Made by a program: the position numbers and the translations under genes | Assembly: GCA_903928965.1 (NCBI GenBank) | Contig: CAIYSZ010000096.1 | Coordinates: forward strand, 1-33,603 | Direction: 5' to 3' | DNA from: an uncultured Pseudomonadota bacterium | Lineage (GTDB): Bacteria > Pseudomonadota > Gammaproteobacteria > Methylococcales > Methylomonadaceae | DNA length: 33,603 bases | Notes under the pieces: model-generated | What the model saw: the letters and a program-made list of their open reading frames with translations, nothing else | Told to the model about the DNA's origin: nothing | The model's database searches: none | Part shown: positions 26,545 to 33,023 of the stretch, piece after piece | How positions within the stretch are numbered: position 1 is the stretch's first letter | Layout of the letters: each line of letters starts with the position of its first letter

Positions 26545-26796
26545 TTTTTGAGTTCCTTAATAATCCATATCAAAATGTAATGTCGTCTCCTCGCTTGCCG
26601 TTTATATGCCGCTCAAGCGATTACTGGTCTATCAGCATTTTGTGTGCCAATTACATGATATTGATTTTTAATGACTTATTTTATGAGCTGATAGAGGGGC
26701 TGTTAGCGGAGCATCAGGTTATGTTGATTTGATGTTGATTTTTCTGCAGTTTAATTAAAGGTTGGGCCAGTAAAAACTTTTGGCGGAGCGTTTTGA

Positions 26797-27702: not shown

Positions 27703-27883
27703 GCTTGCAAATGTCTTGAAATTAAACACTGTTCAGAAAATGTGCGTATAACGCTGTATTCTAAACCGAGCTATTTTAGTTATAAGCATTAAACATGCCA
27801 TGCGGCTGCGGAATTTGTGCCCAATTTAGTGGTTGACACTGGGCTTAATTATGGATTTTCTTGTTGTAATTGATTGGATAAAT

Positions 27884-28024: not shown

Positions 28025-28041
28025 TTGGTACAATAACTGCA
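28025..28041 (+). promoter_or_regulatory. Sigma-54 promoter of first small RNA unit
   Basis: TTGGTACAATAACTGCA has GG (28027-28028) and GC (28039-28040) exactly 10 nt apart, the -24/-12 spacing. It matches the mmoX promoter at 14 of 17 positions. Transcription should begin near 28052. Confidence 0.75.
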
Positions 28042-28051
28042 TGGTGTTAGT

Positions 28052-28188
28052 GGGGATATTGCTTGTCCTCCGACAGACAACCTTAACAGGTAGTCCGGTC
28101 TTTTGTGCGTTACTTCTACCCCCTAAAATTGCTCCTTTCTGAGCTAAGGGCAAGGCGGTTAATCTAGGCCTTGCCCTTTTTCTTTTTT
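28052..28188 (+). ncRNA. Putative sigma-54-dependent small RNA 1
   Basis: The transcript from the -24/-12 promoter to a strong terminator would be about 135 nt. I find no frame with a Shine-Dalgarno; the only ATG overlaps the promoter. Visible structures: a TTGTC/GACAA hairpin (28063-28080) presenting CTCC in its loop, an ACCT/AGGT mini-hairpin right after, a single-stranded C-rich stretch CTACCCCCTAA, GCTCCTTTC, and the terminator. CTCC and CCCC motifs could pair with ribosome-binding sites. It shares several of these features with the second unit at 29047. Role and targets are inference. Confidence 0.6.
28148..28188 (+). terminator. Rho-independent terminator of small RNA 1
   Basis: GGGCAAGG (28148-28155) and CCTTGCCC (28169-28176) form a perfect 8-bp stem, followed by TTTTTCTTTTTT. 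This is the strongest evidence that a transcript ends here without coding for a protein. Confidence 0.88.
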
Positions 28189-28316
28189 GTGTTGACCAGG
28201 GGAGGCGATTCTTCTCGCCGGGCTTTCAAATTTCAAATTAGGCGTTGAGGCAATTTGTTCAACACACCGCTTTTTTGCACGAAATTTAATTAGACTTTGA
28301 CAATAATGTGATTACT

Positions 28317-28565
28317 ATGAAAATTATTACCTTTGCCTGCTTGATGCTGGTCTCCAGGGTTGTCGGCGCCGAGAACTATCCGGCTGCCTATTTTCAACCG
28401 AAAGTGATTTTTATGTCAGATCAGAATGCGCCGGAACCCGCGGTTTCGGCGGGAGAGGTCGGAACGGCGGAGAATAGTGATGATGTTAATTATCCAGCGG
28501 CTAATTTTCAGCCTAAGGTGATTTTCAGCTCCGCCGATGAAAATGTGAAATCGGATGTTAAATGA
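28317..28565 (+). CDS. 82-residue secreted protein with duplicated NYPAAxFQPKVIF motif
   Basis: I do not recognise a family. The N-terminus is a signal peptide (ITFACLMLVSRVVGA, cleavage before ENYPAA near residue 19). The mature part holds two copies of a 13-residue motif, NYPAAYFQPKVIF (20-32) and NYPAANFQPKVIF (58-70), joined by an acidic linker (SDQNAPEPAVSAGEV). The copies are coded by different codons, so the identity is held at protein level. An ATG at 28317 is preferred; a GTG three codons earlier is possible. No clear Shine-Dalgarno or promoter is visible. It sits between the two small RNA units upstream of mmoR, so it might be co-regulated, perhaps by read-through of the first terminator. 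Confidence 0.6.
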   Translation: MKIITFACLMLVSRVVGAENYPAAYFQPKVIFMSDQNAPEPAVSAGEVGTAENSDDVNYPAANFQPKVIFSSADENVKSDVK

Positions 28566-29018
28566 TCATTAATTCGTTTTGGGAAGTCTAGGCGTTATAT
28601 ATTGATCAAGTCCGACAACATTTTTAGAAATTTGACAGCTTGTTAAATGTTAATCAAGTGCTTTAATTTGCCGTTTGAATTGGCCTAGATAAACTGCTTT
28701 CCGTCGGGGGCTAGGCTGGCGTTGACAGGCTGGCGGCGGGGCCGGATGCATGTTTTGGCGCGGCGAAGCAGGTGTATTAGCCGCCGGGGACGACGGGGTC
28801 GGTTAAGAAAGTTGGACAGTGTCCAATTTTTGCGCCTGCCGGGTCTGATTTCGCGTCGATTTCGCAAATCCGTAGAGCGGGGCTAATGTTATCCTGCCGC
28901 ACCCATGATGACGCTATTTTTAAATAACTTTTTGATATATTAGTGTAATTAAATTTTTTGACGCCGCCGGGCCGATGGGTCGGTGAGATTGTGATCTTGA
29001 TGGGGTGTGAAATTTATT
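28566..29018. other. Non-coding region with palindromic site
   Basis: No supported gene. A GC-rich patch (28700-28870) contains an Arg-rich minus-strand frame that I reject. At 28812-28826 is a perfect palindrome, TTGGACAGTGTCCAA, followed by five T residues. It could be a terminator, but its ACAGTGT core also fits the dyad seen upstream of the other two sigma-54 promoters, and it lies about 205 bp before the next -24 box. Confidence 0.5.
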
Positions 29019-29035
29019 ATGGCATGATTAATGCT
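29019..29035 (+). promoter_or_regulatory. Sigma-54-like promoter of second small RNA unit
   Basis: ATGGCATGATTAATGCT has GG (29021-29022) and GC (29033-29034) exactly 10 nt apart and a TGGCA -24 box. The -12 box (ATGCT) deviates slightly from the usual TTGCT. The predicted start is near 29047. Confidence 0.65.
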
Positions 29036-29046
29036 TTTTTTATTTG

Positions 29047-29178
29047 TGTGAGTGAACGCCTTTCTTCTTGCCGGCACTCTGCCTAGAAGGTGGTTAGGCT
29101 AGTATGTTTGCTCTATCTCCTAAGTTTCTCTGAAGTGCGCTTAGGCAATGTGACAATATGTCACATTGCCTCTTTTTC
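29047..29178 (+). ncRNA. Putative sigma-54-dependent small RNA 2
   Basis: About 130 nt from the predicted start to a strong terminator, with no credible frame (the only ATG gives nine codons). It contains a CCTA/TAGG stem enclosing AAGGTGG, then the C-rich stretch CTATCTCCTAAG followed by TTCTCTGAAG. These line up in the same order with unit 1 (CCT-loop-AGGT, then CTACCCCCTAA, then TTTCTGAG), suggesting paralogues. CCTAAG can also pair with CTTAGG at the terminator base. Located 127 nt upstream of mmoR; its function is inference. Confidence 0.55.
29143..29178 (+). terminator. Rho-independent terminator of small RNA 2
   Basis: AGGCAATGTGACA and TGTCACATTGCCT form a perfect 13-bp stem around a 3-nt loop, followed by CTTTTTC. 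It separates this unit from mmoR. Confidence 0.88.
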
Positions 29179-29268
29179 TAAATTTGTTATTTTTTGCCTT
29201 CTAAATTGAGTGGAAATTTCTCTAGTCCACTGATTTTAAATTAGTTTTGTGGCGAAACAGATTGGATG

Positions 29269-29305: not shown

Positions 29306-31078
29306 ATGGGTTTTGATTTGAATGTTCCTACCAAGGTTAGGGTGGTGCAAGAGGCCTTTTTAACCAGAAAATTGGTCGAATACACCCTGGATCGTCCTTC
29401 CGAGGCTTGGCAGTGGATGAACCAAAGCCGAATTTTACCTCCCGATAAATATGATTGGGTAAGAGGCGAGGTGTTTGATTCCTGGCAGCGTTGTCTGGAG
29501 GATTATCAACTCCCATTGGGCAAGTTCGCCTATTGGGACCGCTTTCCCTGTATCCAACGCTCCTCTCAAACCAATAATTCAAATACGCTTGAAATCAGCC
29601 GCTTGTTGAGGCAACTTAGCCATAACTTTGAGGTTTTTTTGCGGGACGCGGGTTTGATGCTGGTTTTGGCGCATAAGGACGGTTCCTTGGCTCATATCAT
29701 AGGCGACAGTATTTTTACCGGCGAACCGGCGGATAGTTTGTTTCACCCGAATACACTTTGGAGTGAAAACGTGTTGGGGACTAATGGCATCGGCACGGCG
29801 CTTTACGCCAAACAACCCATGGCGTTTCAGGGCATGGAGCATTATTTGAGCTTGCTGCATCCGTTGACTACGATTGGTTATCCGCTATTGGATGACAATG
29901 GGGAGTTGGTGGCCGTGTTGGGTTTAATCGGCGGCCGTCAGGAGCGGGTGAATTCTTTGTTTGCTTTTTTGCATTTGATCAGCGTGTTGGTGAATACGAA
30001 TCTGCCGTTGACGCGGGACGCGGAGGCGCAGCAGCGGGTGCTGGATAAGATTCCACTGAAAACGGTAAAAAAATGTCCGGTTTCGGAGGGGGAATATTCC
30101 GAGGAATTCCGCGCTATGTTGCATAAAGCAGTCCGGTTGCTGCAACACAAGATTCCGATTCTGATTACCGGCGAGTCGGGGGTGGGTAAGGATCATTTTG
30201 TTAATTTGTTAAAAAATTCCGGTCCGCGCCGCGATCAACCGTTGGTTGCCATCAATTGCGCTTCGATTCCGCATGATTTGATTGAAAGCGAATTATTCGG
30301 CTATGAGGCGGGAAGTTTTACCGGCGCTAAGAATAACGGTAAGCCGGGGAAATTTCTGTTGGCCGACAAAGGGATTTTGTTTTTGGACGAGATTGGCGAT
30401 ATGAGTTTGGATTTGCAAGCCACGTTGCTACGCGTGCTGGAAACTTCCGAATTCACGCCGGTTGGCGGTACTAAGCCGATTAAGGTGGATGTGCAGATTG
30501 TCGCCGCCACCAATGTGCGGTTGTTGGATGCGGTTGAGGCCGGCCGGTTTAGAAGGGATTTGTATTACCGTTTGAATGGCGCGCAGATTAAACTGCAACC
30601 CTTGCGTGAACGCAGTGATAAGGTTTGGATTATTCGGCAAATCATGCAAAGGGAGTTGGCCCGGTTGCCGGAAGGGCATGTTGTCCAATTTTCCGATGAT
30701 GTGCTGGAGTTGATTGACAATCATCCTTGGCCGGGCAATATCAGACAGTTAATCAATGTGTTGCGCACGACTATTTTTACCGCGGCGGATAGTTTAATTA
30801 CCACGGCCGATTTGCCTACCGATTTCCTGGCGGAAATTAATCGAGAGTCCGCGGCAAGAGGCGCTCCGACTCGGGTTCCCGCCGAGCCGGTGATGGAATT
30901 ACCCTTGGCGGAGAGCGCCATGAGTTTAATGGATTGGGAGCGTCACGGTATTACCATGACCTTGCGGGAGTGTGAGGGCAATATTTCCATCGCCGCCAAG
31001 CGGCTGGGCATCACGCGCACCACGCTGTATAAAAAGATTGAACGCTTTGGCTTGAACCGGTTGGGCTTGGCCGGTTAG
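29306..31078 (+). CDS. mmoR: Sigma-54-dependent activator of sMMO genes (MmoR)
   Basis: An AcoR-type enhancer-binding protein of 590 residues. The N-terminal half has a GAF-type sensor (LRDAGLMLVLAHKDGSLAHI, LWSENVLGTNGIGTALYAKQP, FQGMEHYLSLLHPL). The AAA+ domain has Walker A GESGVGKDHF, the sigma-54 contact loop GSFTGA (Ser instead of the common Ala), Walker B GILFLDEIGDM and the sensor RRDLYYRLNG. The C-terminal Fis-type helix-turn-helix is NISIAAKRLGITRTTLYKKIERFGL. There is no receiver domain, so it is ligand- rather than phosphorylation-controlled. Start 29306 is chosen for GGAG 5 nt upstream; a GTG at 29249 is less likely. The position just before mmoX and the -24/-12 promoter of mmoX support the name, though the protein match alone only gives the AcoR family. 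Confidence 0.85.
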   Translation: MGFDLNVPTKVRVVQEAFLTRKLVEYTLDRPSEAWQWMNQSRILPPDKYDWVRGEVFDSWQRCLEDYQLPLGKFAYWDRFPCIQRSSQTNNSNTLEISRLLRQLSHNFEVFLRDAGLMLVLAHKDGSLAHIIGDSIFTGEPADSLFHPNTLWSENVLGTNGIGTALYAKQPMAFQGMEHYLSLLHPLTTIGYPLLDDNGELVAVLGLIGGRQERVNSLFAFLHLISVLVNTNLPLTRDAEAQQRVLDKIPLKTVKKCPVSEGEYSEEFRAMLHKAVRLLQHKIPILITGESGVGKDHFVNLLKNSGPRRDQPLVAINCASIPHDLIESELFGYEAGSFTGAKNNGKPGKFLLADKGILFLDEIGDMSLDLQATLLRVLETSEFTPVGGTKPIKVDVQIVAATNVRLLDAVEAGRFRRDLYYRLNGAQIKLQPLRERSDKVWIIRQIMQRELARLPEGHVVQFSDDVLELIDNHPWPGNIRQLINVLRTTIFTAADSLITTADLPTDFLAEINRESAARGAPTRVPAEPVMELPLAESAMSLMDWERHGITMTLRECEGNISIAAKRLGITRTTLYKKIERFGLNRLGLAG

Positions 31079-31298
31079 GCGCTTTTTGGCGCGTTGCCGC
31101 GCCACCCGTATGTGTTAATCAGGGGGAGGCTTTGTGGTCTCCCTTTTTTTTGGGGTAAGCGCTAATAATCGAATTGTGCGTATTATTAATAAACACTGTC
31201 TAGATTATGAACAAGTCTTAATTATGACTATTTTGTTAATCCTGAATGAAGGTTTTTTTATCCTTTTGAATTAGTTGGTAAAGAGCTGTTAATTGAAA
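31079..31298. promoter_or_regulatory. mmoX upstream region with candidate activator site
   Basis: Contains the mmoR terminator, then AT-rich DNA typical of an enhancer region. ACACTGT at 31193-31199 (complement reads CTAGACAGTGTTTAT) is a candidate activator site about 105 bp before the -24 box. ATGAACAAGT at 31207-31216 also occurs at the end of the 92-bp repeats. Confidence 0.5.
31121..31151 (+). terminator. Terminator after mmoR
   Basis: GGGAG (31124-31128) and CTCCC (31139-31143), extended by G-T pairs, are followed by eight T residues. It ends the mmoR transcript, so mmoX depends on its own promoter. Confidence 0.75.
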
Positions 31299-31315
31299 TT
31301 GGCACGCTAACTGCA
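31299..31315 (+). promoter_or_regulatory. Sigma-54 promoter of the sMMO operon
   Basis: TTGGCACGCTAACTGCA has the near-consensus -24 TGGCACG and -12 box with GG (31301-31302) and GC (31313-31314) 10 nt apart. Sigma-54 control of mmoX is established in other methanotrophs. Transcription should start near 31326. Confidence 0.92.
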
Positions 31316-31439: not shown

Positions 31440-33023
31440 ATGGCTATAAGTGCTGCTACAAAAGCCGCTACCGACGCACTTGCGGTGAACCGCGCGCCAG
31501 TTAGCGTCAATGCTCAAGAAGTGCACCGCTGGTTGCAAAGCTTTACTTGGGATTTCGCGAAAAATCGCACCAAGTATCCTACCAAATACAAAATGGCGAA
31601 CGAAACCAAGGAGCAATTCAAGCTGATCGCGAAAGAATATGCTCGCATGGAGTCCGTGAAAGACGAACGCCAATTCGGCAGCTTGCAAGACGTGTTGACC
31701 AGGGTCGACGCCGGCAACCGCGTGCATCCAAAATGGAATGAAACCATGAAAGTGGTTTCCAACTTTCTGGAAGTGGGTGAATACAATGCTATCGCCGCCA
31801 CCGGTATGTTGTGGGATTCGGCTACCGCTCCAGAGCAAAAAAACGGTTATTTGGCGCAAGTGTTGGATGAGATTCGGCATACCAACCAATGCGGTTACGT
31901 GAACTATTATTTCGCGAAACACGGTCAAGACGCCGCGGGTCACAACGACGCGCGCCGTACCCGGGCTATCGGTCCGCTGTGGAAAGGCATGAAGCGCGTG
32001 TTCTCCGACGGTTTTATCTCCGGCGACGCGGTGGAATGTTCCATTAACCTGCAATTGGTAGGCGAAGCTTGCTTCACCAATCCGTTGATCGTTGCGGTAA
32101 CCGAGTGGGCGGCCGCGAACGGCGACGAAATCACGCCAACCGTGTTTTTGTCGATTGAAACCGACGAGTTGCGCCACATGGCCAACGGTTATCAAACCGT
32201 GGTGTCCATTGCCAACGACGAAGCGGCTTCAAAATACTTGAACACCGATTTGAACAATGCATTCTGGACCCAACAAAAATACTTTACTCCAGTATTGGGC
32301 ATGGCGTTTGAATACGGCAGTTATTTTAAGGTTGAGCCTTGGGTTAAAACCTGGAACCGTTGGGTTTACGAAGACTGGGGCGGCATCTGGATCGGTCGTT
32401 TGGGCAAATACGGCGTTGAGTCTCCACGCAGTTTGCGCGACGCGAAAAAAGACGCTTACTGGGCGCATCACGATTTGTTTTTGATTGCCTATGCCTTGTG
32501 GCCAACCGGTTTCTTCCGCTTGAACCTGCCTACTCCGGAAGAAGCGGAATGGTTTGAAGCCAACTATCCCGGTTGGTATGACCACTACGGCAAAATCTAT
32601 GACGAGTGGCGCGCCCGCGGTTGCGAGGACCCAAGCAGCGGTTTCATTCCATTGCAATGGTTCATTGAAAACAACCATCAAATCTATATCGACCGCGTTT
32701 CTCAAGTGCCTTTCTGCCCTACTTTGTGCAAAGGCGCCAGTACTCTGCGCGTGCATGAGTGGAACGGTAAAAAACATTCGTTCAGTGACGATTGGGGCGA
32801 GCGCATGTGGTTGATTGAGCCTGAGCGTTATGAGTGCCAAAACATTTGGGAACAATACGAAGGCCGCGAATTGTCCGATGTAATCGCAGAGTTGCACGGC
32901 GTGCGCAGCGATGGAAAAACCTTGATCGCGCAACCGCACACCAATAAAGACGGCAAGCTGTGGACCTTGGATGATATTAAACGCATCAATTGCGTATTTA
33001 AGGATCCGGTGAAAGCGCTGTAA
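31440..33023 (+). CDS. mmoX: Soluble methane monooxygenase hydroxylase, alpha subunit
   Basis: Catalytic subunit of the sMMO hydroxylase (alpha2-beta2-gamma2), which oxidises methane to methanol at a carboxylate-bridged di-iron centre in the cytoplasm. All six iron ligands lie at the classical numbers: Glu114 (VGEYN), Glu144 and His147 (DEIRH), Glu209 (GEACF), Glu243 and His246 (DELRH). Thr213 and Cys151 near the active site are also present. The 527-residue length is normal. The ATG is preceded by GAGG 7 nt upstream. It is the first gene of the operon behind a sigma-54 promoter; mmoY follows after 45 nt. Copper is known to repress sMMO in methanotrophs; the sequence shows the promoter type but no copper site. 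Confidence 0.99.
   Translation: MAISAATKAATDALAVNRAPVSVNAQEVHRWLQSFTWDFAKNRTKYPTKYKMANETKEQFKLIAKEYARMESVKDERQFGSLQDVLTRVDAGNRVHPKWNETMKVVSNFLEVGEYNAIAATGMLWDSATAPEQKNGYLAQVLDEIRHTNQCGYVNYYFAKHGQDAAGHNDARRTRAIGPLWKGMKRVFSDGFISGDAVECSINLQLVGEACFTNPLIVAVTEWAAANGDEITPTVFLSIETDELRHMANGYQTVVSIANDEAASKYLNTDLNNAFWTQQKYFTPVLGMAFEYGSYFKVEPWVKTWNRWVYEDWGGIWIGRLGKYGVESPRSLRDAKKDAYWAHHDLFLIAYALWPTGFFRLNLPTPEEAEWFEANYPGWYDHYGKIYDEWRARGCEDPSSGFIPLQWFIENNHQIYIDRVSQVPFCPTLCKGASTLRVHEWNGKKHSFSDDWGERMWLIEPERYECQNIWEQYEGRELSDVIAELHGVRSDGKTLIAQPHTNKDGKLWTLDDIKRINCVFKDPVKAL

Follow-up and report, generated by a model that had tools for sequence, protein, structure and literature searches.

Introduction

Qrr, GlmY and CrcZ are stand-alone small RNAs driven by sigma-54 promoters, with enhancer sites upstream and an intrinsic terminator at the end of the gene. 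How methanotrophs change between their two methane monooxygenases has long been debated, and accounts of the switch usually invoke MmoR, MmoG, MmoD, methanobactin and copper. Two accounts bear most closely on the locus studied here. GlnZ is described as an sRNA derived from the glnA 3'UTR that pairs with its target far upstream of the translation start (PMC9731577). MmoR, together with MmoG, is described as acting upstream of the mmo promoter, and the relevant passages of that account mention neither an RNA gene nor a binding-site sequence (PMC5874634). The transcription map of Methylosinus sporium 5 names EcpR1 and alpha-r45 (PMC12403871). Among open-access methanotroph papers, screened by titles and the first part of abstracts, we found no description of RNAs such as the two presented below.

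Results

The sMMO locus and its gene order

The window, i.e. the whole 33,603-nt stretch of DNA that was analysed, is a methanotroph sMMO locus, as follows from the presence of mmoX and an adjoining sigma-54 activator gene, mmoR:

29309..31078, + strand: mmoR, sigma-54 activator, counted from the ATG; open frame from 29249 (Pfam PF00158, PF02954)
31440..33023, + strand: mmoX, hydroxylase family (Pfam PF02332)

The activator gene was named mmoR because it is kin to the activator beside mmoG in relatives. MmoX is 90-94% identical to its family matches; the letters of the other mmo genes we take from gene order. The contig end falls inside mmoY, and mmoY-B-Z-C-orf-mmoG was found on a second contig of the same genome. 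Since mmoR is absent after mmoG there, the order in this genome is presumably mmoR-mmoX-Y-B-Z-(D)-C-orf-mmoG. Most relatives seen have the order mmoX...mmoG-mmoR, and genus g14 has mmoR at a distance from the sMMO operon. At a guess, the organism resembles Methylomonas.

Two non-coding units with sigma-54 promoters

Upstream of mmoR the following features were identified, together with the promoter of mmoX:

28026..28041, + strand: unit 1 sigma-54 -24/-12 promoter TGGTACAATAACTGCA, GG-N10-GC
28052..28184, + strand: unit 1 predicted sRNA of about 133 nt, its start placed from the -12 element
28146..28178, + strand: unit 1 terminator hairpin AAGGGCAAGGC/GCCTTGCCCTT, 11 bp, with a T-rich run to about 28189
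29020..29035, + strand: unit 2 sigma-54 -24/-12 promoter TGGCATGATTAATGCT, GG-N10-GC
29046..29177, + strand: unit 2 predicted sRNA of about 132 nt, start likewise putative
29143..29171, + strand: unit 2 terminator and palindrome AGGCAATGTGACA/TGTCACATTGCCT, perfect 13-bp stem with T-run, kept before mmoR in the family
31300..31315, + strand: mmoX sigma-54 promoter TGGCACGCTAACTGCA

The initial annotation had proposed two -24/-12 promoters with exact GG-N10-GC spacing, and both were recovered at 28026 and 29020. Direct comparison confirmed that promoter 1 is identical to the mmoX promoter at 14 of 17 positions. The terminators begin 120 nt (unit 1) and 123 nt (unit 2) after the first promoter base, and in both units the hairpin with T-run stands about 95 nt beyond the inferred start. 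The absence of a credible ORF also held, as overlapping frames (counted from 20 aa) reach 53 aa at most and none is credible. In each unit a -24/-12 promoter thus precedes a short non-coding sequence with a terminator, the arrangement of a sigma-54 sRNA gene. The combination of a promoter score of at least 14 with a terminator within 60-220 nt occurred twice in the window, at the two units, and in none of 20 Markov-shuffled windows. Other stretches of the same genome, 394 kb in all, contained three such combinations with weaker hairpins (score 17-19 vs 29 and 32).

The predicted RNAs fold more stably than shuffled sequences (z -2.98 for unit 1 and -3.40 for unit 2), a signal that stems mostly from the terminator; without it the z values are -1.43 and +0.88. 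The units share the CCT-loop-AGGT mini-hairpin and the CTAYCYCCTAA core noted initially. The TTCTGAR stretch is exact in unit 1 but reads CTCTGAA in unit 2. That the units are paralogues is suggested rather than established, since the full-length local alignment score was equalled by 14 of 2000 shuffles and that of the pre-terminator part by 162 of 2000. Neither unit matched Rfam at the gathering score, and four sub-threshold matches (E 0.21 to 5) were at chance level. A BLAST search with unit 1 in 37 genomes of the genus returned the own genome only.

Some other features were noticed nearby. On the minus strand, high-scoring sigma-54-like sites lie at 27785-27800, upstream of a 120-aa ORF with a weak zinc-ribbon match, and at 26634-26649, upstream of a 535-aa ORF with a PAP2 match below cut-off. 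Positions 28596-28654 hold a copy of an interspersed repeat around TATATTGATCAAGTCTGACAA, with 11 other matches in the genome at 81-88% identity.

MmoR-type palindromes upstream of the promoters

The regions upstream of mmoX in 38 relatives, without the window, served to train a profile of a 17-bp palindrome (ACTGGACAGTGTCCAGT). It was seeded with a by-eye consensus of these regions and then iterated, and it replaced a palindrome k-mer search from which little was gained. In the training set the best site begins 101-126 nt before the mmoX promoter in 36 of the 38 relatives, and 34 of them have a site of at least 12 bits upstream of mmoX. The held-out window gave just three sites above 7 bits, the next best scoring 6.8:

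27721..27737, + strand: MmoR-type enhancer palindrome ATTAAACACTGTTCAGA, 19.7 bits, 305 nt before the unit 1 promoter
28811..28827, + strand: MmoR-type enhancer palindrome GTTGGACAGTGTCCAAT, 18.2 bits, 209 nt before the unit 2 promoter
31188..31204, + strand: MmoR-type enhancer palindrome of mmoX, 19.2 bits, 112 nt before the promoter

Each site lies upstream of one sigma-54 promoter, and 346 kb of the own genome contained a single profile site of at least 14 bits. MmoR-type palindromes thus precede both units as well as mmoX and are absent from the rest of the window, so that MmoR and sigma-54 seem to drive both units; this supports the co-induction with sMMO suggested initially. The palindromes at 27721 and 28811 are the putative enhancer-protein sites that sigma-54-dependent sRNA genes carry upstream; that MmoR binds them we infer from their place. 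The distances of 305 and 209 nt count against this assignment, being unlike the 101-126 nt before mmoX. It is very probable that both units are MmoR/sigma-54 sRNA genes.

In relatives' loci that show the mmoG-mmoR junction, no profile site of at least 12 bits occurred inside the junction. Three loci of genus g14 (L107:5616, L108:5301, L109:6127) have a weaker MmoR-type palindrome of 13.5 bits, 493-533 nt before the match to the family model R1 described below, and no sigma-54 site of at least 12 in the last 300 nt. Elsewhere, two PEP-CTERM-like genes (by eye; L263:9425 and 10834) have a different palindrome, ATTTAACAWTGTTTAAT, some 150 nt ahead of their -24/-12 promoters and probably belong to another sigma-54 regulon.

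A conserved RNA element in the family

Thirty-two sMMO loci of relatives were fetched, 27 with mmoR in the stretch and 5 without an MmoR match. The unit 2 terminator palindrome precedes mmoR in 27 of 27, a C-rich stretch stands before it (with CTACC in 17 of the 27 elements), and most relatives have two small hairpins, A and B, ahead of the palindrome. In most relatives seen the element follows mmoG and precedes mmoR; it closes the sMMO operon at its 3' end and has no enhancer of its own. By position it appears there as a 3'UTR-derived sRNA would, between the mmoG stop codon and the operon terminator, whereas the window units are stand-alone.

A covariance model, R1, was built from 24 of the 27 elements with the window sequence excluded; alignment A1 omits L044, L047 and L059 (for a replaced hairpin, as a duplicate and as divergent, respectively). 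R1 finds unit 2 at 29098-29180 (49.6 bits, E 6.9e-10) and, weakly, unit 1 at 28101-28185 (21.3 bits, E 0.0064). In a whole-genome search with 150 of 522 candidates scored, unit 1 was not among the matches listed. No R1 match follows mmoG in the own genome, where a separate enhancer and sigma-54 promoter serve the element instead.

Across 151 family genomes, 39 gave an R1 match at E<=0.01 and 32 contained MmoX. The match was present in 30 of the 32 MmoX genomes, though many of these supplied the model. The two without it are G041, where the contig ends at mmoG, and G009, a possible exception with about 380 nt past mmoG and no R1 match. Nine genomes had an R1 match without MmoX; in G057, G064 and G070 mmoG and/or mmoR adjoin it. 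The matches in G056, G097, G109, G118, G137 and G149 (29.6-41.5 bits) have no sMMO neighbours, look like unrelated terminators and were not counted, and the same applies to G187 from another family (34.2 bits). Order-wide, R1 matched 50 of 251 genomes at E<=0.001, weak matches included, 49 of them within the family. Ten further loci from nine genomes were picked by MmoR, which is present in 59 of 237 family genomes. R1 scored 60-74 bits in all eight that show the mmoG-mmoR junction, among them G160, which an earlier R1 search had also matched; the two without mmoG in the stretch did not match. A contig scan for MmoR with generic peptide words yielded many unrelated activators and one Methylosinus locus that was kept (L123), in which R1 had no match at E 0.05.

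To the proposal that the units are RNAs, the relatives add a conserved, covarying structure adjoining sMMO genes across the family. Two-sided pair changes in alignment A2 (46 distinct sequences) numbered 109 vs 40.9 in shuffles, none of 500 being as high; A2 was built from 47 chosen sources, and as a model-fitted alignment it leans towards structure. In the unfitted A1 (24 sequences) there were 40 such changes vs 21.7 in shuffles, again with 0 of 500 as high. Three of five covariation measures on A1 exceeded all 500 shuffles and two were not above them (144 and 69 of 500). RNAalifold on a plain MAFFT alignment gave the terminator only. As the three helices were set by column counts after RNAalifold, the A1 test concerns a chosen structure. 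Covariation is clear in hairpins A and B. The terminator shows little variation, with two-sided change in 2 of 13 pairs, and contains G-U pairs in its stem.

Predicted pairing with the pmoC start

The initial annotation had guessed particulate MMO as a target, and the C-rich cores of the units fit this guess:

28113..28128, + strand: unit 1 C-rich core CTTCTACCCCCTAAAA, predicted unpaired at 0.68-0.99
29112..29124, + strand: unit 2 core TCTATCTCCTAAG, predicted unpaired only in part, at 0.02-0.94

In the own genome the pmoC leader is CTTTTAGGAGGTAGAAATGG. Unit 1 pairs through 28114-28128 with pmoC UUUUAGGAGGUAGAA at 14 of 15 positions (UUCUACCCCCUAAAA), and the unit 2 core pairs with pmoC UUUAGGAGGUAGA over 12 bp including one G-U (UCUAUCUCCUAA), or over 13 with two. 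The core pattern YTTAGGRGRTAGAR has three exact sites in 3.25 Mb of the own genome, the two units and the pmoC Shine-Dalgarno (SD) sequence; at 91.9% completeness of the genome, another exact site may have escaped the count. The pattern was trimmed to the 14-nt overlap of both cores after the pmoC leader had been seen, and the untrimmed 16-mer has one mismatch to pmoC. With up to one mismatch, 7 sites were found vs 17 for the pattern read backwards.

Ranked by ungapped helix among 333 own start regions, pmoC was beaten by none for unit 2 and by 2 for unit 1, and 6 of 1000 composition shuffles of each unit did as well on pmoC. For the gapped core duplex pmoC was beaten by 6 (unit 1) and 0 (unit 2) of the 333, and for the whole-transcript cofold by 3 and 25. 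The whole pre-terminator duplex placed 72 and 162 start regions above pmoC; its energies are dominated by GC-rich pairing, and cores and ungapped helices were preferred. In the own genome, predicted seed complementarity to the pmoC start thus stands above that to other genes by ungapped helix, pattern and shuffles, and less so by whole-transcript measures. An hfq gene is present in this genome.

The motif GGAGRTAGAAATGGC occurs in the pmoC leaders of the own genome and of 30 of 30 relatives. Strong pmoC pairing was found in 6 of the 24 relatives tested (G141, G117, G038, G015, G096 and G081, with at most 13 of 300 shuffles as good), and in G096 and G081 it runs through a hairpin arm, not the C-rich stretch. 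Combined Fisher p values were 0.006 for 8 relatives of the same genus and 0.010 for 16 others, for genomes that are not independent. In genus g24 pmoC reads GGAGATAG and the RNA has no matching change, and a scan of 22 relatives' pmoC loci gave no pairing site shared by all. Because the pairing is so uneven in relatives, a target conserved throughout the family is not established. As side observations, the gene after pmoC in g24 loci L248, L249 and L256, taken as pmoA, has a similar SD (TTTTAGGAGGTAAG), and the element of G146 pairs with the presumed pmoA SD over 13 nt.

Since the cores resemble an anti-SD sequence, some pairing with SDs is expected. The units could then be genuine MmoR/sigma-54 sRNAs that act mainly on other mRNAs or on SDs broadly, the fit to pmoC reflecting in part the anti-SD likeness of the C-rich loop. 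The weak pmoC pairing in most of the 24 relatives, despite a conserved element, and other start regions that score near pmoC would agree with this. We nevertheless regard it as unlikely, given that pmoC is the only exact core-pattern site genome-wide besides the units and stands at or near the top for both by ungapped helix. Repression of pmoC is the best-supported function of the units and is somewhat more likely than not.

The operon-end element and the mmoR-side palindrome

Unit 2 overlaps a possible promoter of mmoR:

29166..29193, + strand: candidate mmoR promoter, TTGCCT-16-TATTTT plus an extended -10 (TGT), sharing sequence with the T-run

Just after the palindrome, 24 of 27 relatives have an extended -10-like TTGTTAT, and one sequence may be shared by terminator and mmoR promoter. 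In three g14 genomes the operon end retains the C-rich stretch, hairpins A and B and the terminator, and the copy before mmoR retains the palindrome and the TTTTGTTATCTT stretch without the C-rich part and hairpins. This split assigns the RNA element to the end of the operon, and it ties the palindrome to mmoR as well, probably as part of the mmoR promoter.

The immediate downstream neighbour of unit 2 is mmoR, in the same orientation, and the relatives seen mostly have the element between mmoG and mmoR. Unit 2 could thus be a leader under sigma-54 control whose leaky terminator lets transcription into mmoR, a positive feedback that would replace read-through from mmoG to mmoR; its RNA would then have no role in trans. 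In g14 the palindrome and the TTTTGTTATC stretch indeed follow mmoR out of the operon, but the hairpins do not: the C-rich stretch and hairpins A and B remain at the operon end, away from mmoR, and are therefore not for mmoR. Unit 1, moreover, lies 1 kb off with its own promoter, enhancer and terminator, and the unit 2 terminator is a perfect 13-bp stem. A mere leader role is accordingly rather improbable.

Less probable still is that the palindrome acts as DNA, as an operator within the mmoR promoter, with RNA features that are mere by-products. Its 29 bp are conserved in sequence and not in pairing alone, few of its pairs show two-sided changes, and the -10-like stretch follows it. This would leave two sigma-54 promoters and unit 1 unexplained, however, and it does not account for hairpins that vary in sequence while covarying or for the G-U pairs in the terminator stem. 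The palindrome may serve as an operator in addition to its RNA role.

Positions 28320-28565 (+) encode a small secreted-type protein (by eye) with two NYPAAxFQPKVIF repeats, which has no Pfam or NCBIfam match and has a paralogue on another contig (L073:285-566, 41%, E 2e-11). That unit 1 is an untranslated leader or attenuator of this downstream gene on the same strand is hardly credible, given what lies in between, namely the 11-bp terminator with its long T-rich run and then another 130 nt or so, and given the lack of a counterpart of the ORF by tblastn in 32 relative sMMO loci.

Discussion

In the reading that we prefer, the MmoR regulon includes units 1 and 2 as two related sRNA genes whose products block pmoC translation; taken as a whole, this explanation is somewhat better than an even bet. 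MmoR at 27721 and 28811 would activate sigma-54 polymerase at 28026 and 29020, as at mmoX, and transcription of each unit would stop at the terminator and give an RNA of about 132 nt. The C-rich core would then pair with the SD region of pmoC, probably assisted by Hfq, and stop pMMO translation when sMMO is on. In most relatives the element forms the 3' end of the sMMO operon and would therefore be made under the same control; it may be freed from the mRNA by processing. In the own lineage mmoR stands before mmoX and the RNA would be under its own MmoR/sigma-54 promoter. The strongest case for the importance of the RNA is that MmoR/sigma-54 control appears to have been kept although the genes were rearranged. 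More tentative is the full history, in which MmoR makes sRNAs that shut off pMMO (pmoC) translation. Here the RNA would have started out as the 3' terminus of the sMMO mRNA, and the move of mmoR to a place before mmoX would have turned it into two stand-alone genes driven by enhancers.

If true, an MmoR-driven RNA acting on the pmoC start would provide a direct path from sMMO on to pMMO off, and the locus would show how an operon 3'-end RNA becomes a stand-alone gene as gene order changes. The palindrome model of MmoR sites can be used to seek further members of the regulon.

Compared with known systems, the units resemble Qrr, GlmY and CrcZ as independent genes with a -24/-12 promoter, enhancer sites, a terminator and a predicted pairing stretch. 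They differ in their activator, MmoR, in structure and in having no Rfam match. With the mmoX promoter of the MmoR regulon, both units share promoter type and upstream palindrome. Like GlnZ (PMC9731577), the element of the relatives is an RNA that forms the 3' end of a metabolic mRNA under sigma-54 control and adjoins genes of a sigma-54 activator system (glnA-glnLG there, mmoG-mmoR here). GlnZ represses a gene of another pathway by pairing, and the same is proposed here by prediction. Unlike GlnZ, which pairs far upstream of the start of its target, the RNA in the own lineage occurs as stand-alone copies, each with its own enhancer and sigma-54 promoter. The comparison concerns arrangement and proposed action, and no claim of sequence kinship is made.
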